A stretch of DNA of 53,884 nucleotides from Marivita sp. (lineage in GTDB: Bacteria; Pseudomonadota; Alphaproteobacteria; Rhodobacterales; Rhodobacteraceae): positions 1 to 53,884 of the forward strand of contig NZ_JAIPUT010000028.1 in NCBI RefSeq assembly GCF_020055635.1, given 5' to 3'. The position numbers and the translations under genes are program-made. The first letter of the stretch is position 1. Each line of letters begins with the position of its first letter. The notes below the pieces were generated by a model that was not told the DNA's origin, ran no database searches, and worked only from the letters and a program-made list of their open reading frames with translations. This document shows positions 630 to 17,188 of this stretch, piece after piece.

Positions 630-1715
630 TCAGTCGTTCAATACGGTCATGTTGTCCGCATCCCACCCAACCCAGATCATATCACTGCCAACCGACTGGC
701 CAGTTTCGGCATCCACATAGGCCTTGAGCAGTGTATTGCTCCTTTCGCCGACTGCGATCTGCATGGCCATGCGGCTGCCGAGAAAGGTCTTGCCGACGAC
801 ACGCCCTTGCACCGCATTGGCGGTCTGCGGGCGTTCGGCGTGGAAACCAAGCTTTTCAAGCCGCACCGATGCTGTGATCGGCTGGCCTTTGCCCGGGAGA
901 CCCCCTGGAGCCTTGCCGAAAAGGGTCATGCCCTCCCAGTCCATCACCACCTTGTCGTCCTCGGTGCCGCGCATCAGCCCCGAGAGCAGGTTGGTCTCGC
1001 CGATGAATTCCGCCACGAAACGGCTTGCGGGCCGGAAATACAGTTCTTCGGGTGTGCCGTCCTGCTCCACGCGGCCTGCGTTCATGACCACGATGCGGTC
1101 GGACATGGTCAATGCCTCTTCCTGATCGTGGGTCACGAAAAAGAACGTCTTGCTGGTTCGGCGCTGGATCGACTTGAGCTCCTGCTGAACCTGGCCCCGA
1201 AGCTTGGCATCCAGCGCGCCAAGCGGCTCGTCCAGCAGAAGAAGAGCCGGATCGGGCGCCAGAGCACGTGCCAGAGCCACGCGCTGCCGTTGGCCTCCGG
1301 ACAATTGTGCCGGGTAGCGGCTGCCCAAGGTATCGAGTTCGAGGAAGGACATGATCTCGTCCGAACGGCGCTTGATATCCGCCCTGCCCATTCCCTTCAG
1401 CTCCAGGCCGAAAGCAATGTTCTGCGCGACGGTCATGTGCGGGAACAGCGCATAGTCCTGGAACACCATGTTCACATGGCGTTTTTCGGGCGGCTGGTTG
1501 GTCACATCTTCTCCGTCGATTATCACCCTGCCGGAGGTCGGGCGTTCGAATCCGCCAAGAATGCGAAGCGTCGTGGATTTGCCGCAGCCCGACGGGCCGA
1601 GGAAGGTCACGAATTCGCCCTGCGCGATGTCGAGCGTCAGGTTCTCCAGTGCGATGGTGTCGCCGAAATGTTTCGACAGTCCTTCTATGCGGGCGAGCGG
1701 CTTGTCTTGGATCAT
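630..1715 (-). CDS. potA: ABC transporter ATPase, spermidine/putrescine (PotA) type
   Basis: The cytoplasmic ATPase of an ABC importer, 361 residues, the normal PotA length. Visible motifs are Walker A GPSGCGKST (40-48), Q-loop Gln86, signature LSGGQ (138-142), Walker B LLLLDEP (158-164) and switch His196. The C-terminal third is a TOBE-type regulatory domain. It is the last gene of the operon, 3 bp after the potC-like permease. PotABCD-type importers carry polyamines but also other cationic or amine-bearing small molecules. The opine dehydrogenase upstream suggests the cargo may be an amino-acid or opine-like amine. Family is secure; substrate is not. Confidence 0.88.
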   Translation of the reverse strand: MIQDKPLARIEGLSKHFGDTIALENLTLDIAQGEFVTFLGPSGCGKSTTLRILGGFERPTSGRVIIDGEDVTNQPPEKRHVNMVFQDYALFPHMTVAQNIAFGLELKGMGRADIKRRSDEIMSFLELDTLGSRYPAQLSGGQRQRVALARALAPDPALLLLDEPLGALDAKLRGQVQQELKSIQRRTSKTFFFVTHDQEEALTMSDRIVVMNAGRVEQDGTPEELYFRPASRFVAEFIGETNLLSGLMRGTEDDKVVMDWEGMTLFGKAPGGLPGKGQPITASVRLEKLGFHAERPQTANAVQGRVVGKTFLGSRMAMQIAVGERSNTLLKAYVDAETGQSVGSDMIWVGWDADNMTVLND

Positions 1716-1718
1716 GCC

Positions 1719-2522
1719 TCAGGTTTCCTTGTTCATGCGGCGCGTAAAGCGCTCGGCCCAGAGTCCGACCACCGCCGTCAGGATCAGCGCGACGGTCGCT
1801 ATTGCGTTGATTTCCGGGCTCATGCCCGAACGGAGTTTGGCGAATATCAGGACTGGCAGCGTCGGCTCGTAACCTCCCAAGAAGAAGGAGCGGACGAAAT
1901 CGTCGAAGGACAGCAGCAGGCAGAAGATCGAAGCTCCGAGAATAGCCGGAATGAGGTAAGGCATCGTCACCCGCATAAAGGCGATCACCGGGTCGGCGCC
2001 AAGATCGCGCGCCGCCTCAATCTGGCTTTTCGGCAGGGTGGACAGGCGTGCCATGATCACCAGAACCACGAAAGGCACGTTGTGCACAGCGTGCGCCCAG
2101 ACGATTGCGCCCATCCCCGGTTCGATCCCAAGCCAACGGGCGTAGATGCGGAACGCGATGGCCGAGATGATCCCCGGCACCAGCGCCGGCAGCAACGTCA
2201 GTCCGAAGAGCAGGGCGCGGCCCGTGAATTTGCGCCCCTCGAGAAGTACGGCGATCCAGATGCCGACGATCACGGAGATCAGCGTCGAAAGCACCGCGAT
2301 GGAGACGGAGTAGCCAAAGGTCGACAGGACTTCGGTATCGGCGAAGATCCCGGTGTACCAATCCAGCGTCCAGGACCGGATCGGAAAGCCGATGAAATTT
2401 GAATCCTTGAAGCCCATCATCACCATGAGGATCAGCGGCACGAAGACATAGAGGACAAATGCCCAGTAGACACAGGTGAGGAAGATGCGGTTGCCGCGGA
2501 ACAACTCTACACGATCGTTCAT
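1719..2522 (-). CDS. potC: ABC transporter permease, PotC type
   Basis: Inner-membrane permease of 267 residues with about six hydrophobic helices, starting near residue 13. The cytoplasmic EAA loop that docks the ATPase is seen as EAARDLGADP followed by a Pro-containing helix start. It begins inside the stop of the potB-like gene (ATGA, 4-bp overlap) and ends 3 bp before the ATPase gene, so the three are translationally coupled. It forms a heterodimeric channel with the PotB-like subunit. The substrate is unknown. Confidence 0.87.
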   Translation of the reverse strand: MNDRVELFRGNRIFLTCVYWAFVLYVFVPLILMVMMGFKDSNFIGFPIRSWTLDWYTGIFADTEVLSTFGYSVSIAVLSTLISVIVGIWIAVLLEGRKFTGRALLFGLTLLPALVPGIISAIAFRIYARWLGIEPGMGAIVWAHAVHNVPFVVLVIMARLSTLPKSQIEAARDLGADPVIAFMRVTMPYLIPAILGASIFCLLLSFDDFVRSFFLGGYEPTLPVLIFAKLRSGMSPEINAIATVALILTAVVGLWAERFTRRMNKET

Positions 2523-3505
2523 CTCGGGTCTCCTTTACGCAAGGCACTCATGATCTTCTGGAAGGCCGCCGTGATCAGCAGCGCTGCCGCGAACATGATC
2601 GTGGCAAAGGCCGCACCGGTGGGCCATTGATCACCGGCGACGTGGAAAAAGCCCGCGATGGTCTCGGCGAAGACCGTGGTCGACGGCCCGCCCAGCAGGA
2701 CCGGGGTCGCGTAGAAACCGGTCGAGATCAGGAACACAAGTGTGCACCCCGAGGAAATGCCCTCGATCGTCAGCGGAAGCGATATCCGGCGGAAACGGGT
2801 CCACGCCCCCGCACCCAGATCGGCGGCTGCCTCGTTCATGCTCTTGGGCAGCTTCTCCAGCGCCGAATACAGCGGCAGCAGCATGTAGAGCGAGGTCAGG
2901 TAAACGATGCCGACCCCCATTGAGAAGCTGGTATACATGAAGGGGATGGGTCGATCGACGAGACCAAACGTTGTCAGCACCAGATTCACGGCACCGGTAT
3001 TCCCCAGCAAAATCATGATGGCATAGGTTCGCACGATCTCGCCCACCCAGAACGGGATCAGAAGGAGAAGCAGGAACAGCATCTGGTTCTTGCGGCTTAC
3101 GTGACGGGCCAGGAAATAGGCGACGGGGTAGGTGATGAGCAGGGTACAGAAGGTGAATACCCCGGCAAAGATCAGCGTCCGGAAGAACGGCATCCAGAAG
3201 ATGCTGTCGCCGAAGAAGCGGACATAGTTATCGAGCGTGAAGTTCTGTTCCACGCCCGGTGCGACAGGATAGGCATCGGTCAGCGACACCCGGAACATCT
3301 GTAGCATCGGGCCCAGGTGCTGCGAAAGCACCCACAGGATGGGAAAGGCGGCGAGGATCAGGAACTGCCGGCGGGGCGAGGCCGTCGCAACCCGCACCAA
3401 CGCATGATACGGCCCCCAGCCGGACAAGCGGCCCCAGAATACCGGAGTTGAATTGCCGCCTCCGATGTTTCGTGTGGTCTGCTCCGAGGATACGTTCTGC
3501 GTCAT
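2519..3505 (-). CDS. potB: ABC transporter permease, PotB type
   Basis: Inner-membrane permease of 328 residues. The first ~45 residues are a hydrophilic N-terminal extension, followed by about six membrane helices. The EAA loop is present as EAAADLGAGAWTRFRR. It overlaps the potC-like gene by 4 bp. The gap to the upstream binding-protein gene is 74 bp and holds a strong GC-rich hairpin, a place where ABC operons often lower expression of the membrane subunits relative to the binding protein. No strong Shine-Dalgarno is seen before the ATG. Confidence 0.87.
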   Translation of the reverse strand: MTQNVSSEQTTRNIGGGNSTPVFWGRLSGWGPYHALVRVATASPRRQFLILAAFPILWVLSQHLGPMLQMFRVSLTDAYPVAPGVEQNFTLDNYVRFFGDSIFWMPFFRTLIFAGVFTFCTLLITYPVAYFLARHVSRKNQMLFLLLLLIPFWVGEIVRTYAIMILLGNTGAVNLVLTTFGLVDRPIPFMYTSFSMGVGIVYLTSLYMLLPLYSALEKLPKSMNEAAADLGAGAWTRFRRISLPLTIEGISSGCTLVFLISTGFYATPVLLGGPSTTVFAETIAGFFHVAGDQWPTGAAFATIMFAAALLITAAFQKIMSALRKGDPR

Positions 3506-3528
3506 GCTGTCGACTTTCGGAAGATTTA

Positions 3529-3557
3529 CTCCCGGCAGGCGCGCGGCCGGCCGGGAG
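3529..3557 (-). repeat. GC-rich hairpin in the potD-potB gap, flanked by 9-bp direct repeats
   Basis: A perfect 8-bp inverted repeat, CTCCCGGC (3529-3536) and GCCGGGAG (3550-3557), encloses 13 bases. TTTCGGAAG occurs as a direct repeat on both sides (3515-3523 and 3562-3570). Read on the minus strand, the hairpin is followed by TAAATCTTCC rather than a U-run, so it is more likely an mRNA-stabilising or attenuating element than an intrinsic terminator. Confidence 0.55.
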
Positions 3558-3579
3558 CGGATTTCGGAAGACCGTAAGG

Positions 3580-4689
3580 TCAGGCCGCCTTAATCGCCTC
3601 GACCGCGGGATCGACGAGGCTGTATTTCAGGTCGTTGGCCTCGGCGCGGAAGAATTGCAGGTTGGCCAGTTGCTCTTCAGGGAACGAGGTCGACTTTCTC
3701 TCCAACTCGCTGAGGTATTGATCGGCACCCTTGTAGGTCGAGATGAAGCCCGACGCCTTGGTCATCGCCGCGCCGATCTCGGGAGAGGCGAGGATCGCGT
3801 CGAGGAATTTGTACGCGTTGTCCGCGTTGGGCGCGTTGTTGGCGATGTTGTAGGTGTAGACGAAACCGTAGGAGCCTTCGTTCGGTATCGTCATGCCCAG
3901 CGGGAAGCCGTCGTTGATCAACGCCGCGGCGGGCCCGTTCCAGCTGTGACCCAGCACTATATCCTGGTTGACCATCATCTGTTGGAATTCGGCGCCGCTG
4001 TCGTAGTACTTGCGGACCAGCGGCTTGTGCTCGATCAGGAAGTTCTTGGCCTCCTCCACGATTTGCGCAGCCTTTTCCGGGTCATCCATGTACTCGACCA
4101 TGTTGCCGTCATAGCCCATCATCAGCATGACGACGCTCATCATATCCTGAATGATATAGGCAGTCTGGTTCCTGTAGTCCTCGCTGAACAGCGTGTCCCA
4201 GGTCATCGCCTCTTCCTGGGTGACGAAGTCGGTGTTGTAGGACAGCACTTCCATCCCGGACAGGATTGGTGCGCCCCACTTGTTGCCATTGATCGTGGCC
4301 CAGTCGGATTCCGAGAATGTGGGGTTGATGTTGTTCCAGTTGGACAGTCGGTCGGTGTCCAGCGGCGCGAGCAACTGACTGTCGATGAACTGCAGAAAGC
4401 GGTGGCCCGCGACAGTCATGATGTCAACGGTGGGATTTGGCTGCTCGGCGGCCAAGAGGTTAAACTGTTTGCCCTGGTCGTCCACCAAGCGGATGTTCAC
4501 CTTGATTCCGGTATCCGCCTCGAACTGCTTCTGGAAGCTTTCCGGCACAAAGTCGTTGTAGGTCCAGATATTGACCTCTCCACTCGACTGGGCCGAGGCG
4601 CGCCGAATATACATTGGCGAGGCCAGCACTGCGCTGGTCGCAGCGGCCGAATGCAGAAAGCGGCGGCGATTTAGGATCAGTTTTGACAT
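3580..4689 (-). CDS. potD: Periplasmic substrate-binding protein, PotD/PotF type
   Basis: 369 residues. The N-terminus carries a twin-arginine-like signal (RRRFLH at 8-13, then a hydrophobic stretch and an Ala-rich cleavage region near ASAQS), implying export in folded form. The mature part begins VNIWTYNDF, typical of the PotD/PotF family. A good ribosome-binding site (AAGGAG) precedes the ATG. It delivers ligand to the PotB/PotC channel encoded downstream. It follows the opine dehydrogenase gene by 73 bp. Polyamine specificity cannot be assumed. Confidence 0.87.
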   Translation of the reverse strand: MSKLILNRRRFLHSAAATSAVLASPMYIRRASAQSSGEVNIWTYNDFVPESFQKQFEADTGIKVNIRLVDDQGKQFNLLAAEQPNPTVDIMTVAGHRFLQFIDSQLLAPLDTDRLSNWNNINPTFSESDWATINGNKWGAPILSGMEVLSYNTDFVTQEEAMTWDTLFSEDYRNQTAYIIQDMMSVVMLMMGYDGNMVEYMDDPEKAAQIVEEAKNFLIEHKPLVRKYYDSGAEFQQMMVNQDIVLGHSWNGPAAALINDGFPLGMTIPNEGSYGFVYTYNIANNAPNADNAYKFLDAILASPEIGAAMTKASGFISTYKGADQYLSELERKSTSFPEEQLANLQFFRAEANDLKYSLVDPAVEAIKAA

Positions 4690-4762
4690 GGCTGTTCTCC
4701 TTGTTGGGTTTGGCAGTTTCTTGTTGGTCGGTCGTAAATTGGTGTCGGACGGTGCAAAATGG

Positions 4763-5893
4763 CTATTGCAGCAGACCGGTTTTTGCCGCCCGCCTCAGAT
4801 CTTCAAGGCTGTGGCTGCTCAGATCAAGGGCTTTCAGAATCTCGTTCTCTTCTTCGAAGTCCCGCCCGTACATGGCCGAAAAGATCCGGATGCCTGCCTC
4901 GTGAAGTGGCGCCGGGTGTCCCGTCAGCCGACCAAGTGCGGCGGTCAGGACCAGCCCGTAAGGGACGTCTTCGGTGACGTAGCGGCTGTCGGCGGTAGCC
5001 GGTCCGATGCCACCGTTGCCCTGCATGTGCATCTGCTGATTCATTTCCGAAATCGAGGCGATTGGGACATGGAACGACAGGTGGAAATGCTCGAAGATCG
5101 TCTTCACCTCAAGACCCAGCGCCCCGGCGATTTCCAGGCGTTCCAGATCCAGTTGTTCCAGCAGGCGTCCCACCTTCGGCGTGACGTTCGCGCCCTGGCT
5201 CCAGGTCTCGCCGTGTTCCATCCGGGTGATATTGCCCAAGGCAATGCCCATATGGTTCTGTGGATTGAGGTTCGAGAGCGAGATCGCGAGCAACCCGTCA
5301 CGCGGCTGGAATCGATCGCCAAACAGCGTCTGACAAAGGCAGAGCGCCTCGTTGGAACGCGCTTCGGGAACCGTGCAGAGATCGACGCGGCTGCGCACTG
5401 TGTTTACCTTGACCTCGGCCCCGGATTGCCGCCGACCGGTACAGATCGTGGTGCCCCAGGCGGTGATCGGTACGGTGATGCCCCGCTCGGCCAGAAGTTG
5501 CATCAGATAGATCGCACCCAAGGAAGCGTGCGAAGAAACAATCACGTGATGACGTTCCTCGATATGCGGCGCCAACGCGTCCAGCACAGCTTTGTGGCCA
5601 TAACCCGGCAGTGCGACAATCAGAACGTCATTCTGTCGCGCCAGCTTATCCGGGTTGTCCGCAATTCGGGGTTTCAGCGTGGCCTCCAATGCCCCGACAG
5701 CAGTCAGAGCCTGCCCCGCCGCAAGGTCTGCCGTGCCACTGCCCGAAGGCGACCAGAGCATCGGGTCATGACCCGCATCATGCAGCAACGCTGCTGTTCC
5801 GAATGCGATCGAGCCCGCGCCCGCCAATCCTACAGTTTTGCCCAAAATCCCTACCTGCTTCGCTATGTCAGCTGCTTCATGGAAAAATGCCAT
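4763..5893 (-). CDS. NAD(P)-dependent opine (octopine/nopaline-type) dehydrogenase
   Basis: 376 residues. The N-terminal Rossmann domain shows VGLAGAGSIAFG (21-32) for dinucleotide binding; the C-terminal half is the alpha-helical octopine dehydrogenase domain. His214 (in NPQNHMG) and Asp309 (in VTEDVPYG) are 95 residues apart, the same spacing as the His-Asp dyad proposed for Arthrobacter CENDH (His202/Asp297), so the catalytic pair appears intact. The family reversibly joins an amino acid and a 2-oxo acid by reductive amination. Next to an importer, hydrolytic or oxidative use of an imported opine is plausible; biosynthesis of an opine is the alternative. It lies 32 bp after the CMD gene. 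The start has only a weak Shine-Dalgarno and could be slightly downstream. Confidence 0.82.
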   Translation of the reverse strand: MAFFHEAADIAKQVGILGKTVGLAGAGSIAFGTAALLHDAGHDPMLWSPSGSGTADLAAGQALTAVGALEATLKPRIADNPDKLARQNDVLIVALPGYGHKAVLDALAPHIEERHHVIVSSHASLGAIYLMQLLAERGITVPITAWGTTICTGRRQSGAEVKVNTVRSRVDLCTVPEARSNEALCLCQTLFGDRFQPRDGLLAISLSNLNPQNHMGIALGNITRMEHGETWSQGANVTPKVGRLLEQLDLERLEIAGALGLEVKTIFEHFHLSFHVPIASISEMNQQMHMQGNGGIGPATADSRYVTEDVPYGLVLTAALGRLTGHPAPLHEAGIRIFSAMYGRDFEEENEILKALDLSSHSLEDLRRAAKTGLLQ

Positions 5894-5925
5894 GGTGGAA
5901 TGTCATCCCCTTAAACGGCACGTAT

Positions 5926-6516
5926 TCAACCAACAGTCTTCGGGGGCCGAACCGGTTCGCCGAGCACATGCATTAGTCGGTTAGCCCACCCAAAAAGCGC
6001 GGAAGACAAGATGAGGTCCAGAATTTCGGCCTCATCCAGACCTGCGCTTATCAGTGCCGCCATATGCTGCGGACCCGCCTGTGACGGCGTCTCCGACAGT
6101 GCGACCGCAAAGTCAAAGATGGCCCGGTCCCGCGGGTCAAGTTCCGCCTGCGCACCGTCGCGGAACAGCTTGTCTGTCACATCTGTAGATTTTTCGAGAT
6201 CCGCATGACGCGCCGCATGCACGGCGGCACAATAGATACAATGGTTGACCATTGAAGCCGCCAGCGCACCCAGCTCCCGCTCGGCTCGGCTCATCCCACC
6301 CCGGTCATACATAATGGCGTTGAATAGCGGCGAACGTACCTGCAAGCTCTCGACGTCATGCGCGAGGGTAAGCACGTATTCGGATATCTTGGTGTTCGAA
6401 GGCGTGACCTGCAGCGCGGCCAGCTGATCGGCGCTTGCGTCCTTCAGGTCGACGGGCTTCACACGAGGCTGCCAATGCGGGACGGTGCGTGTAAATTTCG
6501 TGATCACTTCGGTCAT
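5926..6516 (-). CDS. AhpD/CMD-fold peroxidase-related protein with CxxC
   Basis: 196 residues. The carboxymuconolactone-decarboxylase/AhpD core has the redox motif NHCIYCAAVH with Cys93, Cys96 and His100, and an upstream Glu typical of the family. Such proteins act as thiol peroxidases or disulfide reductases in the cytoplasm. The start codon overlaps the stop of the next CMD gene by 4 bp (ATGA), so the two are coupled. From memory, it resembles the paired CMD families named after Avi_7169 and Avi_7170; I could not check this. Its role in the operon is unknown; protection from peroxide made by the flavoprotein is one option. Confidence 0.8.
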   Translation of the reverse strand: MTEVITKFTRTVPHWQPRVKPVDLKDASADQLAALQVTPSNTKISEYVLTLAHDVESLQVRSPLFNAIMYDRGGMSRAERELGALAASMVNHCIYCAAVHAARHADLEKSTDVTDKLFRDGAQAELDPRDRAIFDFAVALSETPSQAGPQHMAALISAGLDEAEILDLILSSALFGWANRLMHVLGEPVRPPKTVG

Positions 6517-6980
6517 GCGTAACCATCCTTCATCAACCGCAGTCCAGCAATCACCCGAAGCTGATATGCAAGAAAGGCGTTCAGCTCACAAAGCCGTACG
6601 ATGTCGGCATCCGAGATGCCCGCCGCCTGCAGACCTGCAATGTCTGCCGCAGTTACATTGCGGGTGTCGGTAGCGACCTTGTCCATGAACGCAACAACGG
6701 TCTCGAGCCCATCGTCGGCCCCATCCTGCGAAGGTTCCGCCAGCGAAGCGAAAGCGCCCGCGCTCGCTGCATATTGGTCGGAGAGTGCGCGTTCGTCATA
6801 TTGTAACGCGATCCGCGCTGCAAAGGCGGCCCGGAGTTCATGCGACCATCGTCCGTAATCCTGCGGCCTCAGCACGGCCTCTTCGGCAGCCTGGGTCATT
6901 TTGAAGATCTTTGCACGTCCCTCGACGGCATCCCCGGGAGCGTTGCCCAATCCTGCGCTTTTCAATGCAGTTGTATTCAT
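6513..6980 (-). CDS. CMD-domain-like protein lacking the CxxC motif
   Basis: 155 residues from the ATG at 6980 (MNTTALKS), 5 bp after the flavoprotein stop; the longer open frame upstream would run into that gene and is rejected. The helical C-terminal half (ELNAFLAYQLRVIAGL) resembles the CMD fold, but the only cysteine is in LCELNA and there is no CxxC pair, so redox activity of the AhpD kind is unlikely. Its coupling by ATGA to the CxxC-bearing paralogue suggests the two form a complex, with this one as a structural or binding subunit. Function is not known. Confidence 0.7.
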   Translation of the reverse strand: MNTTALKSAGLGNAPGDAVEGRAKIFKMTQAAEEAVLRPQDYGRWSHELRAAFAARIALQYDERALSDQYAASAGAFASLAEPSQDGADDGLETVVAFMDKVATDTRNVTAADIAGLQAAGISDADIVRLCELNAFLAYQLRVIAGLRLMKDGYA

Positions 6981-6985
6981 ATCTA

Positions 6986-8452
6986 TCAGGCCACTTTCTC
7001 TTTCTTTCCCGCGAAGGCCGCCTCTGATGGGACCCATTCGCTGCCATCGAGTTCCGGTTTGTCGTAGTCCAGCATCGCCTGCCAGTGCTTGTCTATGTCT
7101 TCGGCGTAAAGCTTCGCCGCAAGGGCGCGCGCCATCCAGCCGGCCCCCTCCGAGATCCCCGGAATGTCGCCACTGACCTTGCCGAGGCTGGCTGAGGCGC
7201 CGTAGTTGAAGCAGTAGACATTGGACAGCCAAGGCGCCTGCCCGGGCACCTTCTCACGGAAGGTGAAATCATCGTTCAGATAAGGAAACCGGCCCAGATC
7301 GCTGGAGGCTTCAGCAGCCGGTGGCGTATAGACGTCCTGCCAGAGAAGGATGTCGTTCGCGGCCTCACCGAACTCGGTCCGCGACATCGGATTGATGTTG
7401 AAGCCGGTGCCGAGGATCATGAAATCCGCTTCATACTTGGTCCCATCGGCAAAGCCCAAGATGACAGCGCCATCGCTCTCGGTTGCTGTCTCCACCGCCT
7501 TGCCAAAATGAAAATGAGCATTTGGATGGCGGCTGACACGTTTGGTGGAGCCATGTGGCGGCGGCGTCTGCGTGGCAAAGGAATATTGCATGAAGCGCCA
7601 GCGCCATTCATCGGGCAGGCTGGCGAAACCGGCGGTAAAACCGAAAGAGCCAATGCCCATCATCTTGTTGATGGTCGGCATTTCCTTACGGCGGATCAGG
7701 TGGCGAACCTCGGCTGCTCCGTGCTCCAGCGCTTCGGCGGCATTGTCCACAGCAGAGGCACCAACGCCCACCACCGCTATGCGCTTGCCTTTCAGCGCGT
7801 CAAAATCGATCTCGTCGGCGCTATGAGCCCAGAATTTGCGGTCCAGGCCTTGCACGAAACCCGGGATATTCGGCTCGCCGGTACCATCGCGCCCGGTGGC
7901 AAAAACCACCTTGCGGGTCAGGATTGACGTCGCCGTCGTGCCCGACAGGTGAAGGCGCAGCAACTCGCCCTCGGGTACCACCCGATCGACAGACACTCCG
8001 TTCTCGATCGGAATCTCAAGCACCCTGCGATACCACTGAAGGTATTCCATCCACATCGGCCGCGGGATCTTATCCAGCGCGTCCCACTTGTCGGACCCGA
8101 ACTGCGCGCGGTACCACGCCTGAAAGCTCAGCGCGCCATGGCCATAGGCCGGGCCGGTCAGTTCCTTTGGGGACCGAAGCGTCTCCATGCGCGCATAGGT
8201 CAGCCACGGGCCTTCCAAGCCTTCCGGGCTGCGGTCCAAAACCCGAATATTGTGAATACCACCGGTCTTCAGCGCCATCCAGGCCACCATGCCGCACATG
8301 CCGCCGCCGATGATCACCATATCGCTGACGCCTTCACGAGGAGGCACCCAATCCTTGCCCGGCCAACAGAGGAATTTCAGGTCTTCACTCAACCGCGCTT
8401 CGAGCGCGGGCAGACCCAAACCATCGATCTTGGGAGTGGTATCCAATGTCAT
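6986..8452 (-). CDS. FAD/NAD(P)-binding oxidoreductase, monooxygenase-like
   Basis: 488 residues. FAD-binding IIGGGMCG (47-54), a second dinucleotide motif GVGASA (229-234) and an ATGRDG linker (185-190) give the two-Rossmann layout of flavin-containing monooxygenases and N-hydroxylases. I do not see a clear FMO fingerprint (FxGxxxHxxxY/F), so hydroxylation, amine oxidation or dehydrogenation all remain possible. The ATG at 8452 is chosen over one 19 codons upstream because it overlaps the MFS gene stop by 4 bp, like the other junctions in this operon. An amine or sulfur compound is a likely substrate class given the neighbours. Confidence 0.75.
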   Translation of the reverse strand: MTLDTTPKIDGLGLPALEARLSEDLKFLCWPGKDWVPPREGVSDMVIIGGGMCGMVAWMALKTGGIHNIRVLDRSPEGLEGPWLTYARMETLRSPKELTGPAYGHGALSFQAWYRAQFGSDKWDALDKIPRPMWMEYLQWYRRVLEIPIENGVSVDRVVPEGELLRLHLSGTTATSILTRKVVFATGRDGTGEPNIPGFVQGLDRKFWAHSADEIDFDALKGKRIAVVGVGASAVDNAAEALEHGAAEVRHLIRRKEMPTINKMMGIGSFGFTAGFASLPDEWRWRFMQYSFATQTPPPHGSTKRVSRHPNAHFHFGKAVETATESDGAVILGFADGTKYEADFMILGTGFNINPMSRTEFGEAANDILLWQDVYTPPAAEASSDLGRFPYLNDDFTFREKVPGQAPWLSNVYCFNYGASASLGKVSGDIPGISEGAGWMARALAAKLYAEDIDKHWQAMLDYDKPELDGSEWVPSEAAFAGKKEKVA

Positions 8453-9831
8453 TTCATCTTCCTGTAAGTCATCGGTTCGTTCACGAAAATATTGGACGGA
8501 TTTCCCCATTTAGGGTGAAGATCATCAATATGAAAGGCATGGGCATGCCGTTGCCGCTGCCCATGCGCCGGGATTTCACGCAGATGACGATGATCCGCAG
8601 GCAGTTCGGGATGCTCATGTTCGCGGGTCAGCGGGTCGGTCGAGGGCCAAGCCCGCAGCGCCAGAATCACCATGCCGATGGTCAGTCCCGATAAAATCAT
8701 GAGCGCCGTTTCCAGTCCGACCCGTGCCCCCAGTTCACCAGCCAGCGGGTAGGCCACCATCCATCCCGCGTGGGACAGCGAAAACTGTGCTGCGAACACT
8801 GCCGCGCGGTTCGCCCTCGCGGCGGAGCGCGCAATTACGAGACCACCCGGCGTCAGCACCAGCGACGCAGCAAGCCCGAAACCGACCCAAAGTGCCATGT
8901 ACCCAGCGTAGCCAAGCGGCAGCACGATCGCAAAGCCGAGCATCGCATGCAGAACCGCGCCCGCAGCCATCGTGCGGCGCTCTTGCAGAGCCTCGATCAG
9001 GCGCGGCACCAGAACAGCGCCGATCACTGCACCCAGCCCGTAGAACGTCATGAGAACCGGGAATTCCGCTTCTGCATTCCCCAGACGCACTCCGGCCAGA
9101 ACGACAGAATTGACCAGCACCCAAGCCATTCCGAGCGATAACGCGAAATTCAGCAGGAACAGCCCACGCAACCTCGGGGTCCTGCGGTATATGGACAACC
9201 CCCTTGACGCCCTTGCGATAAACGATCCCTTTCTCGGATCCACGCTATCCGCCGGGAAATGTGTCAGCAGCAGCATTGCAATGGACCCGAGAAAGGCCAC
9301 GGCCGCCACCCAGAACAAAAACGCAGATGCAACCATCTGCATGACGATGGCTGCGATCACCGGTGAAAGCACCGACTCCAGCGTATACGCGATCCGCGAC
9401 CACACCAACGCCCGACTATAGCCGTGCTCATCCGTCAGCACATCGGGTATCACGGATTGGAACAGGGGCGTGAACCCCGCCGAGACCGCGAAGAAGCAAA
9501 ATGCCAATACGGCTATTTGCCAGGTTTGCGTCGCAAAGGCCATGGGCAGCAGCAGTAGCATGCGCACCACATCCAGCCCCACCATCACCCGTCTGCGCCG
9601 AAGCCCGGAAAACAGCGCTTCGGCCAGCGGCGAGACGCCGACATATGCCACCATCTTCACCGCAAGAAGAAAGCCGAGGATCTGTCCAGCCGCCGCCGCC
9701 CCGCCAATCCGGTAGGCCGCCAGCGACATTGCGACGGTCATCAGGCCAATCGCCAAAAGCGAGAAGATCTGGGCAGCGAAAAGCGTCCGGAACGCTGCGT
9801 TGGCCATAGGACTGAACAAGGTTGCGATCAT
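8449..9831 (-). CDS. MFS transporter with His-rich C-terminal tail
   Basis: 460 residues with about twelve membrane helices and the cytoplasmic loop RRRRVMVG after helix 2-3, as in the MFS group that includes enterobactin exporters and the nickel exporter NreB. After the last helix (ends near residue 408) there is a ~50-residue polar tail with nine histidines, ending in HAFHIDDLHPKWG. It probably exports a small molecule or metal complex; direction and cargo are inferred. It overlaps both neighbours by 4 bp, so it is made together with the aminotransferase and the flavoprotein. Confidence 0.78.
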   Translation of the reverse strand: MIATLFSPMANAAFRTLFAAQIFSLLAIGLMTVAMSLAAYRIGGAAAAGQILGFLLAVKMVAYVGVSPLAEALFSGLRRRRVMVGLDVVRMLLLLPMAFATQTWQIAVLAFCFFAVSAGFTPLFQSVIPDVLTDEHGYSRALVWSRIAYTLESVLSPVIAAIVMQMVASAFLFWVAAVAFLGSIAMLLLTHFPADSVDPRKGSFIARASRGLSIYRRTPRLRGLFLLNFALSLGMAWVLVNSVVLAGVRLGNAEAEFPVLMTFYGLGAVIGAVLVPRLIEALQERRTMAAGAVLHAMLGFAIVLPLGYAGYMALWVGFGLAASLVLTPGGLVIARSAARANRAAVFAAQFSLSHAGWMVAYPLAGELGARVGLETALMILSGLTIGMVILALRAWPSTDPLTREHEHPELPADHRHLREIPAHGQRQRHAHAFHIDDLHPKWGNPSNIFVNEPMTYRKMK

Positions 9832-11288
9832 GACACGAGCATTTCCTTGGGAAAGCTTTCAGAATTGAACCTGCCGTTTCCTGTATCGACACGGTACTGA
9901 TCGACATAATCTGTGGCAACCGCTGCCAGATCATCGACCGCAGCTATAATCGTGTCCGCCTTTTCATCGGTCATCAAAGCTGAAAAATTCAGACGAACCC
10001 AGCCGGGTTTGGCGATTTCATCGCCTCTACCCAATGCCTCGATGGTAGCATCGGATTCGGTTTTGCCCAATCCAAGCAGACGGTGACCGTAAGGACCTGC
10101 ACAAGCGCACCCTCCTCGCGCCTGGATCCCGGTCAGGTCACTGAGCAGGCGTGTAAAGAACTGATGATGCAGCAGCCCCCCTTTTGCATCCCGCACACGG
10201 AAGGAGAAGATCGGAAGCGCGTTTGCACTCGGAATGCCCAGCAGCTCGATCCGGTCATTCTTCCCCCAAGCCTTGACCGCCCGCGCACGCAGTTTTTCGT
10301 GCCGCTCGTCGAGCCAGCCCTGACCCAGTGCTTCCTTGACCAGCATCGCCAGCGCAACGCGAATGTCGCCGATCACGTTCGGAGTGCCACCTTCTTCCCG
10401 CGTCGACAGTCTGTCAGAATAGATGTGGCCCCAAGGCGATACGAAATTTACCGTGCCGCCGCCGGGGAGCGTCGGCGTGGTACGACGGACGATCCCATCG
10501 CGGATCACCAGAACACCACTCGCTCCTGGTCCGCCCGGAAACTTGTGAGCCGAAAAAACCAACGCATCTTTCTGTGCATCGGTCCCGGCCTTCATATCCA
10601 TTTCGCAATAGGGACCGGCACAGCCGTAATCCCATATTGCCAATGCGCCATGCGCGCGAAGCTTGCGCGTCACGGCGTCCACATCTGTCAGAATGCCGGT
10701 CACGTTCGAGGCCGCCGAAAAGGTGCCAACAATCCGCCCCGCCCCTTGGGCAGCGTTCAATGCGCGCTCCAGATCGTCCATGTCGACCCCGCCACCCGGG
10801 GCTTCGGCGATCTCGACCACCTCTGCACCAGTCTCTCGCCAAGGGAGTATATTTGAATGATGCTCGTAGGGTCCGGTCAGGACCACCACTCGCTCACCCG
10901 CGCGAACCAATCCGGAAAGACCGAGAAGACCAACAACGCGGTTGATCCCGGCGGTCGAGCCCGCACCCGCGAACACGACGCTCATGCCCGCGCCCGCGCC
11001 GGTCAGCCTGGCCACCTCGGCCCTCGCACCCTCGCGCAGCTTGGACATGTATTCGCCGCAGAACGACGCTTGCGTATGAGTGTTGGCATAATAGGGCAAC
11101 ACGCGATCGCGCACGAAATCTTCCACCTGGGTCAGAGCGCGGCCGGAAGCCACGTAGTCGGCATAGATCAACGGACGGGCACCGAACGGACCGGCAATAT
11201 GCACATCTTCGCCAATGAGGCCCTCGCGGACCCGATCATGTACTTCGGCGCTTTGCAGCGCGGTCTTGAAAGTATCGAGCGCAGTCAT
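9828..11288 (-). CDS. Class V aminotransferase / cysteine-desulfurase-like PLP enzyme
   Basis: 486 residues, first gene of the operon, with AGAGGAAG before its ATG. PLP-binding residues: Lys249 (SAHKFPGG), Asp220 (IWDYGC) and a stacking His in YEHHSN (141-145). Near residue 392 the loop RGGCACAGPY places Cys394 and Cys396 where NifS/SufS enzymes carry their catalytic Cys (RxGHHCA in SufS). It could therefore be a C-S lyase or desulfurase, or another side-chain-cleaving PLP enzyme. It is longer than the ~400 residues of SufS. It is not part of an obvious isc or suf cluster, so a catabolic or biosynthetic role in this operon is more likely than Fe-S assembly. Confidence 0.75.
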   Translation of the reverse strand: MTALDTFKTALQSAEVHDRVREGLIGEDVHIAGPFGARPLIYADYVASGRALTQVEDFVRDRVLPYYANTHTQASFCGEYMSKLREGARAEVARLTGAGAGMSVVFAGAGSTAGINRVVGLLGLSGLVRAGERVVVLTGPYEHHSNILPWRETGAEVVEIAEAPGGGVDMDDLERALNAAQGAGRIVGTFSAASNVTGILTDVDAVTRKLRAHGALAIWDYGCAGPYCEMDMKAGTDAQKDALVFSAHKFPGGPGASGVLVIRDGIVRRTTPTLPGGGTVNFVSPWGHIYSDRLSTREEGGTPNVIGDIRVALAMLVKEALGQGWLDERHEKLRARAVKAWGKNDRIELLGIPSANALPIFSFRVRDAKGGLLHHQFFTRLLSDLTGIQARGGCACAGPYGHRLLGLGKTESDATIEALGRGDEIAKPGWVRLNFSALMTDEKADTIIAAVDDLAAVATDYVDQYRVDTGNGRFNSESFPKEMLVS

Positions 11289-11364
11289 GTCTTCCTCTGA
11301 TTTGACAAGAGCAACTATGACGCAATTTTCGGGAGGATTTTCACATAAATTTGCCTTTGTGTCG

Positions 11365-11392
11365 GATAATTTGAGTACTATTATCGAATAAT
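11365..11392. promoter_or_regulatory. AT-rich inverted repeats, candidate Lrp/AsnC operator
   Basis: In the 102-bp divergent promoter, GATAAT (11365-11370) and ATTATC (11380-11385) form an inverted repeat with 9 bp between, and ATTAT-CGA-ATAAT (11380-11392) overlaps the regulator's own start codon. Lrp-family proteins bind degenerate AT-rich palindromes and commonly repress themselves while controlling a divergent operon. Binding is inferred. Confidence 0.5.
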
Positions 11393-11855
11393 GGCACGAA
11401 TTTTAGATCACTTTGACCACCGCATCCTTGAGGAATTGCAGCGAGATGCTGCACAACCGCAACGCGCGCTGGCCGAAAAGGTGGGGCTTTCGCAGAATGC
11501 CTGCTGGCGCCGTCTCAAGGCGCTGGAAGCTTCCGGCGCGATCCGCAAACGCACGGTTGTGATCGATCGAGAAAGTCTCGGCGGCGGTTTTGTGGTTTTC
11601 TCCATGATCAAGACGCGCCACCATTCGGCGGAGTGGCTCCAGCAGTTCCGAACCCATGTCTCAGCCATCCCGGAGGTGATCGACTTCTTCCGCATCGGTG
11701 GCGAATACGATTACCTGCTGAAGATCGTCGTCCGAGACATGTCCGGATACGACAGCGTGTACAAACGGCTGATCGAGAACATCGAGCTGGAAACCGTAAC
11801 CTCATACTTCGCCATGGAAGCCATCGAGGAACAACGTCCTATTCCTTTGCGGTGA
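11391..11855 (+). CDS. Lrp/AsnC-family transcriptional regulator
   Basis: 154 residues, the standard family length. The N-terminal winged helix-turn-helix spans roughly residues 6-50 (RALAEKVGLSQNACWRRLKA is the recognition region) and the C-terminal half is the RAM/AsnC ligand-binding and oligomerisation domain. Family members sense amino acids or related metabolites. It is transcribed divergently from the ten-gene operon with only 102 bp between the starts, so it is the likely regulator of that operon, and its effector may be the substrate or product of the pathway. Confidence 0.9.
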   Translation: MARILDHFDHRILEELQRDAAQPQRALAEKVGLSQNACWRRLKALEASGAIRKRTVVIDRESLGGGFVVFSMIKTRHHSAEWLQQFRTHVSAIPEVIDFFRIGGEYDYLLKIVVRDMSGYDSVYKRLIENIELETVTSYFAMEAIEEQRPIPLR

Positions 11856-11984: not shown

Positions 11985-12653
11985 CTACAAGGCCGGCACG
12001 CCGATCACATGAGGGTGCGCAAGGATCAGCGCCACGAAGGCCCCCAGACCGAGCAGTATGCGCAGGACGGTGCGAGGCCACGAACGCGGGGCGTGAAGCT
12101 TGGGCGCGGCGCGGCGGGATTTGTCCAGGGAACGCCATTGCTCCGCGCCCATGATGCGGCGTTTGCGCCTGTCGATCAGGCTGCGCCCGGCGATTGCGAA
12201 GACGCCAAGGACGCCGAACAGCAGGATGTGGGCGACGTCTCCGTTTGGCAGCAGATGCACACCTGCCCAAAGGGCGAGTGCGTTCAGGATCGGATGACGG
12301 GTCAAGCCGGTGATGCCCGGCCGCGTGGGATCGTATGCCTCGTTTCGGGCGCCGCCGAAGGAAAACGGGTTGGGCCGAGCGATGCTCAGGGCCAACAACA
12401 GGCAGACCGCCAGCATTCCCAGATGCGTCACATGGCGCTGCCACGGAACCTGGGGCCAAAGCTGGACATAGGGGGCCTGTCCTGCTGACCAGATCAGGAT
12501 CGTCAGCATGCCGAGCGACAGGATCGAGTAGCCCAACCCGAAGCCACGCGCGCCCAATGCGGAGGTCAGGTGCGATTTCACCGCCGGGCGCACCGGAATC
12601 GAGTGCGTCAGGAAGAACGCGGCGAAAACGGCGGCATAACCAACCCAGCTCAT
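11985..12653 (-). CDS. nnrU: NnrU family membrane protein
   Basis: 222 residues from the ATG at 12653, which overlaps the nnrS stop by 4 bp; the open frame continues 50 codons upstream inside nnrS and is not used. Hydrophobic throughout with about five or six membrane helices. NnrU was found as a gene needed for NO/nitrite metabolism in R. sphaeroides and contains the conserved LTRHPILNALALWAG motif shared with isoprenylcysteine methyltransferase-like NnrU relatives. It is the last gene of the nor operon. The biochemical activity of the family is unknown. Confidence 0.82.
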   Translation of the reverse strand: MSWVGYAAVFAAFFLTHSIPVRPAVKSHLTSALGARGFGLGYSILSLGMLTILIWSAGQAPYVQLWPQVPWQRHVTHLGMLAVCLLLALSIARPNPFSFGGARNEAYDPTRPGITGLTRHPILNALALWAGVHLLPNGDVAHILLFGVLGVFAIAGRSLIDRRKRRIMGAEQWRSLDKSRRAAPKLHAPRSWPRTVLRILLGLGAFVALILAHPHVIGVPAL

Positions 12654-13840
12654 GCGGTTTTCCCCGGCTTGGGGCGCACCAAGATCGGGCCGTAGGCCAC
12701 GGCGAACCCTGCGAATGCGATGAGCCACAAGAGCCCGGACACGTAACTCAATTCCACCAGCACCGATGCCCCGAACCGGGCTGCCACCGATCCGAACAGA
12801 CACAGATAGATCGCCAGCGTTGCCCTGCCTGCAACCAGGTCCTGTCCGGTATGTCCGAGTGTCGCCCGTGTCATCACGGCCAGCGTCATGGCACCGATGG
12901 CCCCTGACATCCAGAGGTGTTGTGCGGCTGCCGTGGGGTGACCCAGCACGATCGCGGTCCCGAGGGCGAGCGCCCCGATCGGAAGGAACGCGTAAGAGAC
13001 ATGCAACACCCAGACCAGCGCCTCGGCCAGGGTATGATGCCCCTGCCAGCGGGTCAGTCGGGCCAGGTGCAGGGCGCCCATCACGACCAATGCCATGCCC
13101 GTCTGGATGCTGTCCGGGTATGCGACCCAGAGCCCCAGAGCGCCAAGGCTCGCCAACAGGACAATCTTGTCGAAGCGTTGCATCGGCGGCGCGGGGCGCG
13201 CAGATCTTTCGGTGCGTGCCAGCCAGTTGCGGGTGAAGGACGGGATAATCCGCCCACCGATCACGGCGATCATCATCACCGCCATGGCAAGGCCAAGCCG
13301 CAGGCCGTATCCCTGTGCCGCATAGCTCCCGCTCAGGGCCTCGTAGTGGAACACCGCATTGGAAAGCGTGAAAACGGCCAAGAGCGCAAACACGATCAGG
13401 TTGCGCCAGTTCTTCCCGGCGACGATCTCGCGCAGGATCAACGCACCGAGAACGACCGGAAACGCGAGGTCAATTGCCGGTGCGGTGCCGGCGGGCAAAT
13501 TGGCAGAGCCAAGAATGGCAAGGCGCCCGAGCACCCACAGCGTGAACAGCGCCGCCAGCCGCCAACCCACCATCGGCAACCGCCCGGTCCAGTTCGGAAC
13601 AGCGGTCAACAGGAACCCGGCCAGAATCGCGCCCAGATAGCCGAAAAGAAATTCATGCGCATGCCAGGACACCGGGTCCAGCCGCGTCGGCAATGTGAGC
13701 GCCCCCGTCATGGCCGGCAACCAGAGCAGCATTGCCAGCACGACCCAAACCGCACCGAACAGGAAGAAGGGGCGAAATCCAAAGCTGAAAAGCGCAGGCC
13801 CCGTCCAGGCGCGCATTTGTTCTGCCGATGTCTGTGCCAT
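12650..13840 (-). CDS. nnrS: NnrS family haem/copper-type NO-stress membrane protein
   Basis: 396 residues with about twelve membrane helices. Conserved histidine-bearing segments such as DPVSWHAHEFLFG and HLWMSGAIGAMTL mark the NnrS family, a haem- and copper-containing inner-membrane protein that lessens NO stress. The ATG at 13840 is preferred over the GTG one codon upstream because it overlaps the previous stop (TGATG). It is co-transcribed with nor genes upstream and nnrU downstream, fitting joint NnrR control. Confidence 0.87.
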   Translation of the reverse strand: MAQTSAEQMRAWTGPALFSFGFRPFFLFGAVWVVLAMLLWLPAMTGALTLPTRLDPVSWHAHEFLFGYLGAILAGFLLTAVPNWTGRLPMVGWRLAALFTLWVLGRLAILGSANLPAGTAPAIDLAFPVVLGALILREIVAGKNWRNLIVFALLAVFTLSNAVFHYEALSGSYAAQGYGLRLGLAMAVMMIAVIGGRIIPSFTRNWLARTERSARPAPPMQRFDKIVLLASLGALGLWVAYPDSIQTGMALVVMGALHLARLTRWQGHHTLAEALVWVLHVSYAFLPIGALALGTAIVLGHPTAAAQHLWMSGAIGAMTLAVMTRATLGHTGQDLVAGRATLAIYLCLFGSVAARFGASVLVELSYVSGLLWLIAFAGFAVAYGPILVRPKPGKTA

Positions 13841-14094
13841 CACGTGGCTCCGTTGCTGGTTCGGATGCGTGTCAGGACAGTACCGTCATCGGAACATGTC
13901 AGGCGAACACGCCGTCCGGCGTTAAAGAAGGTCAGGCGAAACCGGCCGGCATCCGCGCCTTCGCCGATTTCGAAGCGGCTGGTGATGTCGCCAGATCTCA
14001 TCTTCTCGCGAACCTCTCGCGGCGCCAGATCAAGCAGTTCCGCCAGATCGGACGCGTCGATCACCGGCTCGCCGCTGGTGATGTCGATCTTCAT
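13840..14094 (-). CDS. Small DUF6522-like protein of the nor cluster
   Basis: 84 residues from the ATG at 14094 (MKIDITSGEP), which overlaps the previous stop by 4 bp (ATGA). It has no membrane segment and no cysteine cluster beyond one Cys. The sequence is a compact alpha/beta arrangement ending in a beta-rich stretch (RFRLTFFNAGRRVRLTC). I believe it belongs to the DUF6522 family seen beside nor and nnrS genes, but could not check. Function unknown; a cytoplasmic accessory role in NO metabolism is inferred only from position. Confidence 0.7.
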   Translation of the reverse strand: MKIDITSGEPVIDASDLAELLDLAPREVREKMRSGDITSRFEIGEGADAGRFRLTFFNAGRRVRLTCSDDGTVLTRIRTSNGAT

Positions 14095-14330
14095 GGCGCG
14101 GGGTCTCTGTCGGCCACATCCATCAAGTAACGAATGTGGCGCGCAAAGTACCAGGTGGCGGGTGCTCCGATGGCGCAGCCAATGCCGATGGACGCGGCGG
14201 TCGAGGCCACCGGCCCGCCAACCCAGCTGAAGATCAGCGAGGCGAAGAACACGTTGACCGCCGCCGCCCCTGCCCCGAACGGGTAGAGCGCGATCGCGAT
14301 CCGTGTTGTGGACCACCCTTGCCGCGTCAT
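14091..14330 (-). CDS. Small two-helix membrane protein of the nor cluster
   Basis: 79 residues with two hydrophobic segments (about 11-35 and 42-62), a predicted hairpin in the inner membrane. It starts inside the stop of the 58-residue gene upstream and ends inside the start of the DUF6522-like gene, both by ATGA. Denitrifiers often carry small membrane proteins (NorE, NorF) after norD. The size is close to NorF of Paracoccus (about 77 residues), but I see no diagnostic motif, so I do not assign the symbol. Confidence 0.65.
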   Translation of the reverse strand: MTRQGWSTTRIAIALYPFGAGAAAVNVFFASLIFSWVGGPVASTAASIGIGCAIGAPATWYFARHIRYLMDVADRDPAP

Positions 14331-14503
14331 GTGCGGGCGACCAGCCGTTGCACCAGCACCAGCGCCGCAATCAGCGCGATGCTGCCTATCGCGAACCAGA
14401 ATTCCGCGGTAGCGGATTGGGCCTGCGGAATGGGTCGGTCGAAGCTTGATGCCAGTGTGGGGGATGCCAGCACGGCTGCAATGATCGAGGTGAGAATACG
14501 CAT
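14327..14503 (-). CDS. 58-residue membrane protein of the nor cluster
   Basis: A short gene directly after norD (1 bp gap), preceded by GGAG within the norD end. The product begins MRILTSIIAAVLASPTLASS, which reads as a cleavable signal peptide, followed by a short polar stretch (SSFDRPIPQAQS) and one C-terminal membrane helix (about 35-53), ending VQRLVART. A 4-bp overlap with the next gene shows translational coupling. It may be a single-span accessory subunit of the NO reductase; this is inferred from location only. Confidence 0.65.
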   Translation of the reverse strand: MRILTSIIAAVLASPTLASSFDRPIPQAQSATAEFWFAIGSIALIAALVLVQRLVART

Positions 14504-14504
14504 G

Positions 14505-16388: not shown

Positions 16389-16393
16389 GGCGC

Positions 16394-17188
16394 TTATCCG
16401 TAAATGGTCGAGACCAGGTCGCGCAGCGCCTGCTGCACGTCCGGCTCGTCGCTCAGGGGTTCGATGACAGCGGCCTCGAGTGCCTGATCGACACCCATGG
16501 ACCCGGCGATCAGCGTGGCCGCGTAGATCAGAAGCCGGGTGGACACGCCCTCTTCCAGATCCATGCCCGACAGGTTCCGGATATGCCCGGCCAGCCGCAC
16601 CAGCGGCGCCACGCGTCCCGGCTCCAGACGGCTTTCCCGCGACACCACCGCGATCTCGGTTTCCGGATCCGGAAAGTCGAACGAGATCGACAGGAACCGC
16701 TGACGGGTCGATGGTTTCAGCCGTTTCAGGACGTTCTGATAGCCGGGGTTGTAGCTTGCAACCAACATGAAGTCCCTTGGGGCCACCAGTTCTTCGCCAG
16801 TTCGATCGATCATGAGAGTGCGCCTTGTATCGGTCAGCGGGTGCAGGACGACGGTGACATCCTTGCGGGCCTCGACAACCTCGTCGAGATAGCAGATGCC
16901 GCCGTGCCGCACCGCGCGGGTCAGCGGGCCATCGACCCAGACGGTCTCTCCGCCCTTGAGCAGATAGCGCCCGATCAGGTCCGCTGCCGACAGGTCGTCA
17001 TGGCAGGCGACGGTGTAAAGCGGCTTGCCCAGACGCGCCGCCATATGTTCGACAAAGCGCGTCTTGCCGCAGCCGGTGGGCCCCTTCAGAAGAAGGGGCA
17101 AACCGTTGTCATGAGCCGTCTCGAACAGGTCGCATTCGCGGCCGGTGGGTTGGTAGAACGGCAGGGTCGGTGTGACTTGCATATTCAT
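16394..17188 (-). CDS. norQ: NorQ, AAA+ ATPase for NO reductase maturation
   Basis: 264 residues, MoxR/CbbQ-type AAA+ ATPase. Walker A GPTGCGKT (36-43), Walker B-like ICYLDEV and a sensor region at ASYNPGYQN are visible. It couples ATP hydrolysis to activation of the NorCB complex together with NorD. It begins 3 bp after the norB stop and has GGAGAATAAG before the ATG; a second in-frame ATG lies two codons in. Cytoplasmic. Confidence 0.93.
   Translation of the reverse strand: MNMQVTPTLPFYQPTGRECDLFETAHDNGLPLLLKGPTGCGKTRFVEHMAARLGKPLYTVACHDDLSAADLIGRYLLKGGETVWVDGPLTRAVRHGGICYLDEVVEARKDVTVVLHPLTDTRRTLMIDRTGEELVAPRDFMLVASYNPGYQNVLKRLKPSTRQRFLSISFDFPDPETEIAVVSRESRLEPGRVAPLVRLAGHIRNLSGMDLEEGVSTRLLIYAATLIAGSMGVDQALEAAVIEPLSDEPDVQQALRDLVSTIYG

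Follow-up and report, generated by a model that had tools for sequence, protein, structure and literature searches.

We analysed a stretch of 53,884 nucleotides from Marivita sp. (Rhodobacteraceae; contig NZ_JAIPUT010000028.1 of RefSeq assembly GCF_020055635.1), here called the window, and focused on a ten-gene operon that faces a divergent Lrp-type regulator. Judged from sequence and gene neighbourhood, the operon may serve the catabolism and detoxification of an amino-acid-type compound that is imported and either contains cysteine or gives rise to it, with disposal of the sulfur and export of a metal, and we put the probability of this reading at about 0.42. The unit itself is a real and conserved module, undescribed as far as we searched. 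Its genes, and a conserved footprint between two of them, are as follows.

11391..11855, + strand: divergent DecR/CyuR-like Lrp/AsnC regulator (44% identity to E. coli DecR)
11332..11355, - strand: conserved 24-bp footprint of the GGnnAAnAnnTGTGAAGAnTTT type in the PLP-Lrp intergenic region (motif search)
9828..11288, - strand: SufS-like class V pyridoxal phosphate (PLP) enzyme, predicted cysteine desulfurase/lyase (Pfam Aminotran_5; SufS-type profile matches)
8449..9831, - strand: MFS transporter with a His-rich C-terminal tail, homolog of the nickel exporters NcrA/NirA (39% to Klebsiella NcrA)
6986..8452, - strand: class B-type flavoprotein with FAD and NAD(P) domains, predicted N- or S-monooxygenase (Pyr_redox_3, Lys_Orn_oxgnase)
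6513..6980, - strand: CMDA, CMD-like TIGR04029 relative without a conserved cysteine
5926..6516, - strand: CMDB, peroxidase-related CMD/AhpD-like protein with C93xxC96 and H100 (TIGR01926)
4763..5893, - strand: octopine/nopaline-type opine dehydrogenase, ODH (Octopine_DH)
3580..4689, - strand: potD, PotD-type periplasmic binding protein (SBP_bac_8)
2519..3505, - strand: potB, PotB-type permease (profile match)
1719..2522, - strand: potC, PotC-type permease (profile match)
630..1715, - strand: potA, PotA-type ATPase (TIGR01187)

All ten genes of the unit are intact open reading frames that run on the minus strand from 11288 to 630. A preliminary description, made from the letters alone, had counted ten genes with nearly all junctions overlapping or shorter than 80 bp, and this was confirmed: the PLP/MFS, MFS/flavoprotein, CMDA/CMDB, and potB/potC junctions overlap by 4 bp, and the others are, in gene order, gaps of 5, 32, 73, 74, and 3 bp. 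The flavoprotein frame opens at 8509, but its homologs begin at codon 20 of that frame (8452). Hence, the start was moved from 8509 to 8452, and the overlap with the MFS gene is 4 bp rather than 61. The PLP and Lrp genes are separated by 102 bp; the motif search that yielded the footprint comprised 88 of 92 distinct Lrp-PLP intergenic regions, that of the window included. Terminator-like sites in the window were no more frequent than chance predicts (10 against 10.2 expected), and a sigma-70 promoter scan gave no excess over chance.

A search of genome contigs with the flavoprotein detected at least 516 relatives. The best 80 loci of these were kept, so the sample leans towards close relatives; presence thresholds were fixed in the script, and some loci are cut by contig ends. 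CMDA was present at 79 of the 80 loci, CMDB at 78, ODH at 74, PotD at 73, and PotA, PotB, and PotC at 72 each, followed by Lrp (37), PLP (34), MFS (34), MATE (15), and LysR (14). The flavoprotein, CMDA, CMDB, ODH, and PotDBCA occurred together in 70 loci and all eleven genes in 24. Thus, flavoprotein-CMDA-CMDB-ODH-Pot is the core, and Lrp/PLP and MFS form a second layer. As the order is kept across many genomes of Rhodobacterales and Hyphomicrobiales, the arrangement is not due to chance, and the unit put forward in the preliminary description is supported as a conserved one. Plasmids of root-nodule and crown-gall bacteria likewise carry the core. A wider sample of the phylum, 398 genomes, held 23 with a flavoprotein match at E<=1e-60; no CMD pair was seen at many of the remoter matches. 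The preliminary description knew of no pathway with this gene set; our literature searches among open-licence PMC papers, aimed at the gene combination, also returned no described pathway.

A version of the module in S. meliloti, SMb20278-SMb20285, is treated in PMC3596328. There, the cluster is reported as co-regulated, with changed expression in glnD and glnBglnK mutants, and is discussed as a polyamine system; expression is reported and no substrate given. The genes described there (LysR, a PotFHIG-like importer, a pyridine nucleotide-disulphide oxidoreductase, a hypothetical protein, and a CMD gene) fit our S. meliloti locus, L128, in kind and number. Unlike the window, L128 has no PLP, Lrp, or MFS gene, and its ODH gene lies apart, adjoining a TauE-annotated gene. 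A transporter of R. pomeroyi labelled 'opine/polyamine' (SPO2699-2702) could not be tied to the operon and was set aside.

ODH belongs to the Octopine_DH family (122.2 bits against a gathering score of 30), as the preliminary description had proposed. Its nearest solved structure by sequence is 1bg6, N-(1-D-carboxylethyl)-L-norvaline dehydrogenase. H214 and D309 of ODH, predicted active-site residues kept in all 75 sequences, align with H202 and D297 of 1bg6 (numbering counted from the alignment), which we take to be its catalytic His/Asp pair; the paper searched for a catalytic role of this pair made no mention of it. Around the same enzymes the importer varies among Pot, polar amino-acid (PAAT), and TRAP types. 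PotA narrowly passed TIGR01187 (356.7 bits; cut-off, 355.6), and PotD resembles PotD/YdcS but lies far under their cut-offs (72 versus 582 bits). A PAAT importer was seen in Pantoea, R. etli, R. tumorigenes, Thioclava, Jiella, and others, and a TRAP importer in a few loci, partly judged from size and position only. ODH was present in 71 of the 72 loci with all four Pot genes; in the sole exception, L083, a contig edge falls where relatives keep ODH. Only two of eight PAAT loci (L009 and L258) had ODH, a count that excludes L277 because it duplicates the L126 type. When five annotated plasmid loci were included with the Pot loci, ODH was found in 76 of 77 Pot and two of eight PAAT loci (Fisher p ~4e-7, uncorrected for relatedness). 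This could mean that the Pot system imports a form needing ODH, such as an N-carboxyalkyl amino acid, and the PAAT system the amino acid itself.

The predicted fold of the flavoprotein (mean pLDDT 80.3) best matched the ornithine N-hydroxylases PvdA and SidA, at TM-scores normalized to the query of 0.55-0.59 and 14-17% identity, and the bacillithiol disulfide reductase YpdA was also near. Since the TM-scores are modest and YpdA lies close by, both N- and S-oxygenation seem possible. A sequence search of solved structures gave weak matches only (10 at E<=1e-5, the best at 7.6e-7). Genes for LLM monooxygenases and acyl-CoA dehydrogenases accompany two distant homologs. CMDB exceeded the TIGR01926 cut-off (191.7 versus 81.8 bits) and its C93, C96, and H100 were kept in 76 of 76 sequences. 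CMDA had no Pfam match and scored 59.2 against a TIGR04029 cut-off of 100.75, which its homologs in L006 and L007 pass (103.1 and 101.9); no near-invariant cysteine was seen in its 60-row alignment. The retained CxxC/His site on one side and the lack of such a cysteine on the other suggest that CMDB is catalytic and CMDA a non-catalytic partner. The Avi_7169/Avi_7170 type of CMD pair (TIGR04030/TIGR04029) is similar in that CMDA homologs pass TIGR04029 and CMDB matches TIGR04030, but CMDB stays under the TIGR04030 cut-off (157.6 versus 233.15) and the window pair goes with a class B-type flavoprotein.

The divergent regulator, correctly recognized in the preliminary description as a dedicated Lrp-type protein, has a DecR/CyuR-like character that was missed there. 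It is 44% identical to E. coli DecR (141 bits) and 31% to E. coli Lrp (79 bits), the two proteins compared, and it ranked top among 11 matches to DecR in its own genome (133.8 bits; next, 108.2). E. coli CyuR, which is the same protein as DecR, responds to cysteine (PMC11408624). In E. coli, DecR/CyuR with cyuPA likewise sets a cysteine-sensing Lrp-family regulator over an importer and a cysteine-degrading enzyme; in place of the latter two, the window has an ABC importer and a SufS-like PLP enzyme, plus extra oxidative enzymes.

The PLP enzyme had been noted as such and is present and intact; what the preliminary description did not see is its desulfurase-like nature. SufS was the best structural match of its predicted model, and the sequence score (126.9 against a SufS cut-off of 475.1 bits) indicates a related fold not filed as SufS. 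K249, C394, and C396 were invariant in 35 of 35 sequences, with K249 and C396 aligning with the PLP lysine and the catalytic cysteine of SufS-type chains. The enzyme was found at E<=1e-120 in 129 of 341 genomes of the window's own order, and 60 neighbourhoods were selected from the places listed in that search. A divergent Lrp gene lies directly upstream of the PLP gene in 41 of them and a flavoprotein of this family in 13. Within the flavoprotein tree (75 rows, a quick tree of hand-picked rows), PLP-linked members fall in at least three well-supported parts with differing partners, and the PLP label changes 13 times. We conclude that a cysteine-desulfurase-type PLP enzyme under a cysteine-sensing regulator is probable.

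Some genes next to the PLP homologs may concern sulfur. Of 12 annotated plasmid loci with PLP, seven have a gene annotated as MBL-fold or beta-lactamase directly downstream of the PLP gene; all seven are from Hyphomicrobiales (L009, L126, L154, L155, L156, L158, and L277, with L126 and L277 closely related). The six compared by BLAST (all but L277) match the protein from L009 or L155, and two that were checked with profiles match the dioxygenase part of Blh (519 and 538 bits, under the two-domain cut-off of 625). TauE-annotated genes then follow in L009, L126, and L277. Blh with TauE is a known route from sulfide to sulfite (PMC5823870). In Rhizobium, the Blh-like dioxygenase and TauE-annotated genes beside the PLP homolog resemble the bigR/Blh/TauE operon of that paper, with the difference that such genes are absent from the window operon and that regulator and sulfur source are other ones. 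Elsewhere in the window's genome, three dioxygenase matches exceeded 275 bits, one with an in-frame stop. HisC, TyrA, and ChaC (the last in six of 60 loci) were considered as PLP partners but count for little, since they look like a constant chromosomal surrounding in certain genera. Separately, the Thioclava plasmid locus L157 carries an ArsO-like flavoprotein (288 bits, under cut-off) near an Lrp/PLP pair that is also flanked by a gamma-glutamylcyclotransferase and an M19 dipeptidase-flavoprotein-LysR set. A second arrangement, PotA, hydantoinase/oxoprolinase A and B, a binding protein, permeases, and PLP, was observed in L209, L228, and L231; in the latter two, PLP is followed by another kind of flavoprotein (49%).

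The His-rich tail of the MFS transporter, pointed out in the preliminary description, is conserved (at least five His in 39 of 40 sequences, the window included); the homology to nickel exporters had been overlooked. A plasmid search with the MFS led to NirA/NcrA, annotated as nickel efflux proteins. The homology to NcrA/NirA is full-length and extends to a His-rich tail ending in IDDxHPxW; identity to the NcrA of a Klebsiella plasmid is 39% over 436 aligned positions, tail included. The Klebsiella gene adjoins ncrB, ncrC, and ncrY. Compared with the ncrABCY/nirA nickel resistance operon, the window MFS has no adjoining NcrB or NcrC gene and sits inside a probably catabolic operon. An NcrA-like MFS occurs at 35 of the 80 flavoprotein loci; 32 of these are the operon's own MFS, of which 28 were scored directly upstream of the flavoprotein and four more lie where frame calls overlap. 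By comparison, any NcrA-like MFS was found in 20 of 61 whole related genomes and in none of the 47 PLP loci without the flavoprotein. Separate NcrA relatives (51-68% identity) lie at L074, at L075, and, as a fragment cut by the edge of the locus, at L058; at L058 and L075 they adjoin a relative (53 and 81%) of a repressor annotated as metal-sensing in R. etli, presumably of the CsoR/RcnR type. P-type ATPase or CDF genes lie near PLP in L009, L155, and L277, but tblastn of the loci, with a single query each for ATPase, CDF, and repressor, revealed no wider pattern for ATPase or CDF. On sequence grounds, export of nickel, cobalt, or a similar metal by this MFS is somewhat more plausible than another cargo. 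Two more NcrA-like genes are present elsewhere in the window's own genome (L285 and L286; 44 and 43%). On R. etli plasmid p42e (L277, 11435-13165), a CDF transporter and a metal-sensing repressor gene come directly after the PLP-MBL-TauE genes.

Here, we propose the following course. PotDBCA would take up the compound, and ODH, by its family and its His/Asp pair, would split an N-(carboxyalkyl) amino acid oxidatively into amino acid and keto acid, or act on the matching imine. The flavoprotein may oxygenate N or S, and CMDB, aided by CMDA as the non-catalytic partner, may handle the oxidised intermediate at its CxxC/His site. The DecR-like regulator would sense released cysteine, the SufS-like enzyme would strip its sulfur, and the sulfur would pass to persulfide dioxygenases, whose relatives lie elsewhere in the genome. 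The NcrA-like MFS would expel a divalent metal, nickel or cobalt, brought in with the compound or freed from it. Catabolism and the cysteine link are the best supported parts; the substrate, the metal, and the order of steps are what we infer. The chances that the substrate is a cysteine conjugate are about even, and uptake as a metal chelate is less likely than not. In a more specific and rather doubtful form, a cysteine-derived opine or thiazolidine carrying nickel or cobalt would be imported as a chelate, ODH and the flavoprotein/CMD set would dismantle the ligand, the sulfur of the cysteine would be disposed of by the SufS-like enzyme, and the metal would be returned by the NcrA-like pump. 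A thiazolidine nickel ligand of the cysteine-plus-pyruvate type has reportedly been found in nickel-binding proteins.

Several observations weigh against the proposed course. The 80 flavoprotein loci and 60 PLP loci share descent and are not mutually independent. PLP is present in only 34 of the former, and 47 of the latter have no flavoprotein, so the sulfur module is optional. The 23-bp CyuR site matched 89 intergenic regions no better than shuffles (mean 14.16; shuffle mean 13.83 and maximum 14.17 of 100). An apparent signal under an alternative letter reading of that motif (12.62 versus a shuffle maximum of 12.12 of 30) was gone with the paper's letter definitions and was discarded. A dioxygenase gene adjoining PLP is seen in Hyphomicrobiales only: no such gene is directly downstream of PLP in the five Rhodobacterales plasmid loci, and one of the 60 own-order PLP loci (L200) has a dioxygenase relative, which does not adjoin PLP. 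In a rough tree that carries a long-branch warning, the window MFS groups apart from the starred NcrA clade. A Phaeobacter homolog with the same tail (L283, 4001-5317) has LysR, Lrp, and AzlCD genes as its neighbours, and no metal gene was seen nearby; the His tail alone is therefore no proof of a metal substrate. MATE takes the place of MFS in 15 of the 80 loci, never together with it (P=1.6e-4, uncorrected for relatedness). MATE pumps are not known as typical nickel exporters, and the exported species may therefore be organic. Finally, the S. meliloti cluster was higher on ammonium, and no sulfur or metal test was seen there (PMC3596328).

The preliminary description had offered catabolism of opines or N-alkyl amino acids on the one hand and synthesis of an opine-type metabolite, exported by the MFS and recovered by the ABC system, on the other. 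Catabolism fits better and is probable, given the interchangeable importers, the LysR/Lrp control, and the lack of a nicotianamine-synthase homolog in the window's genome. The leading candidates do not include octopine, strombine, and polyamines, because the regulator resembles a cysteine sensor, the PLP enzyme a desulfurase, and the MFS nickel exporters; a cysteine-linked compound leads instead. A role in breaking down opines or N-alkyl amino acids that lack sulfur (octopine, strombine, alanopine), with Lrp/PLP as a neighbour with its own job, would agree with the ODH family and its conserved His/Asp, with the tight coupling of ODH to the Pot importer, and with the 46 loci lacking PLP. We regard it as unlikely, since PLP joined flavoprotein loci in at least three parts of the tree, the divergent regulator is DecR-like, a TauE-annotated gene adjoins ODH in S. 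meliloti, and ODH is mostly missing (6/8) with the PAAT importer. Polyamine uptake and catabolism is suggested by the PotABCD-type importer and by the published discussion of the S. meliloti cluster; it is very improbable, as PAAT and TRAP systems replace the importer around the same enzymes and PotD is so far under the curated cut-off. An opine-type metallophore that is made, exported, and recovered, by staphylopine-like logic, would bring ODH, exporter, and importer together as in opine-like zincophore clusters (cntKLM), which pair CntM with MFS, EamA, or MatE exporters (PMC7438024), much as MFS and MATE alternate here. The window differs from those clusters, where a nicotianamine synthase gene is placed immediately upstream of CntM, in having no nicotianamine synthase and an importer that is neither of the Opp nor of the FecCD type. 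PF03059 had no match in the own genome and, among 14 control genomes, matched in one, Methanosarcina. The resemblance of the MFS to metal exporters and the three importer types with LysR/Lrp control also argue against synthesis, which we consider improbable.

Detoxification of S-substituted cysteines or glutathione conjugates is a further alternative: the flavoprotein would form a sulfoxide, the PLP enzyme would cleave C-S, and CMDB would reduce a sulfenic acid, with no role for a metal. The gene neighbourhoods offer an M19 membrane dipeptidase near relatives of the flavoprotein or PLP enzyme, OsmC and P450 genes in a Ruegeria plasmid, and a DsbA-like isomerase in four of the 80 flavoprotein loci. 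At the 60 PLP loci there were hydantoinase/oxoprolinase relatives (four), an EgtC-like amidotransferase (four; one checked, 166.5 bits, under the cut-off of 218.65), and TRAP plus OsmC (two). These partner genes are absent from the window operon, the flavoprotein fold is nearest, though weakly, to N-hydroxylases, and the NcrA-like MFS and ODH would be left unexplained; this explanation, too, is an unlikely one.

Two neighbouring regions were inspected by eye. An acidic, EF-hand-like reading frame lies at the window edge downstream of potA (3-275), and the frames beyond the Lrp gene (12000-16400) have the look of denitrification accessory genes (NnrU/NnrS/NorD-like).

The core is widespread, yet it is labelled as polyamine uptake or left blank, and a common compound of soil, plants, or the sea may thereby go unnoticed. 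Should the substrate prove to be an opine or metal chelate linked to cysteine, the metabolism of opines, sulfur, and nickel would be connected, and a role open to testing would follow for the CMD pair. The chelate form of the proposal, if true, would be a pathway of metallophore breakdown and would explain why a catabolic operon holds a nickel pump. The idea is directly testable in Rhizobium etli CFN 42, where the flavoprotein, the CMD pair, a PAAT importer, and the PLP-MBL-TauE genes are neighbours on plasmid p42e (L277).

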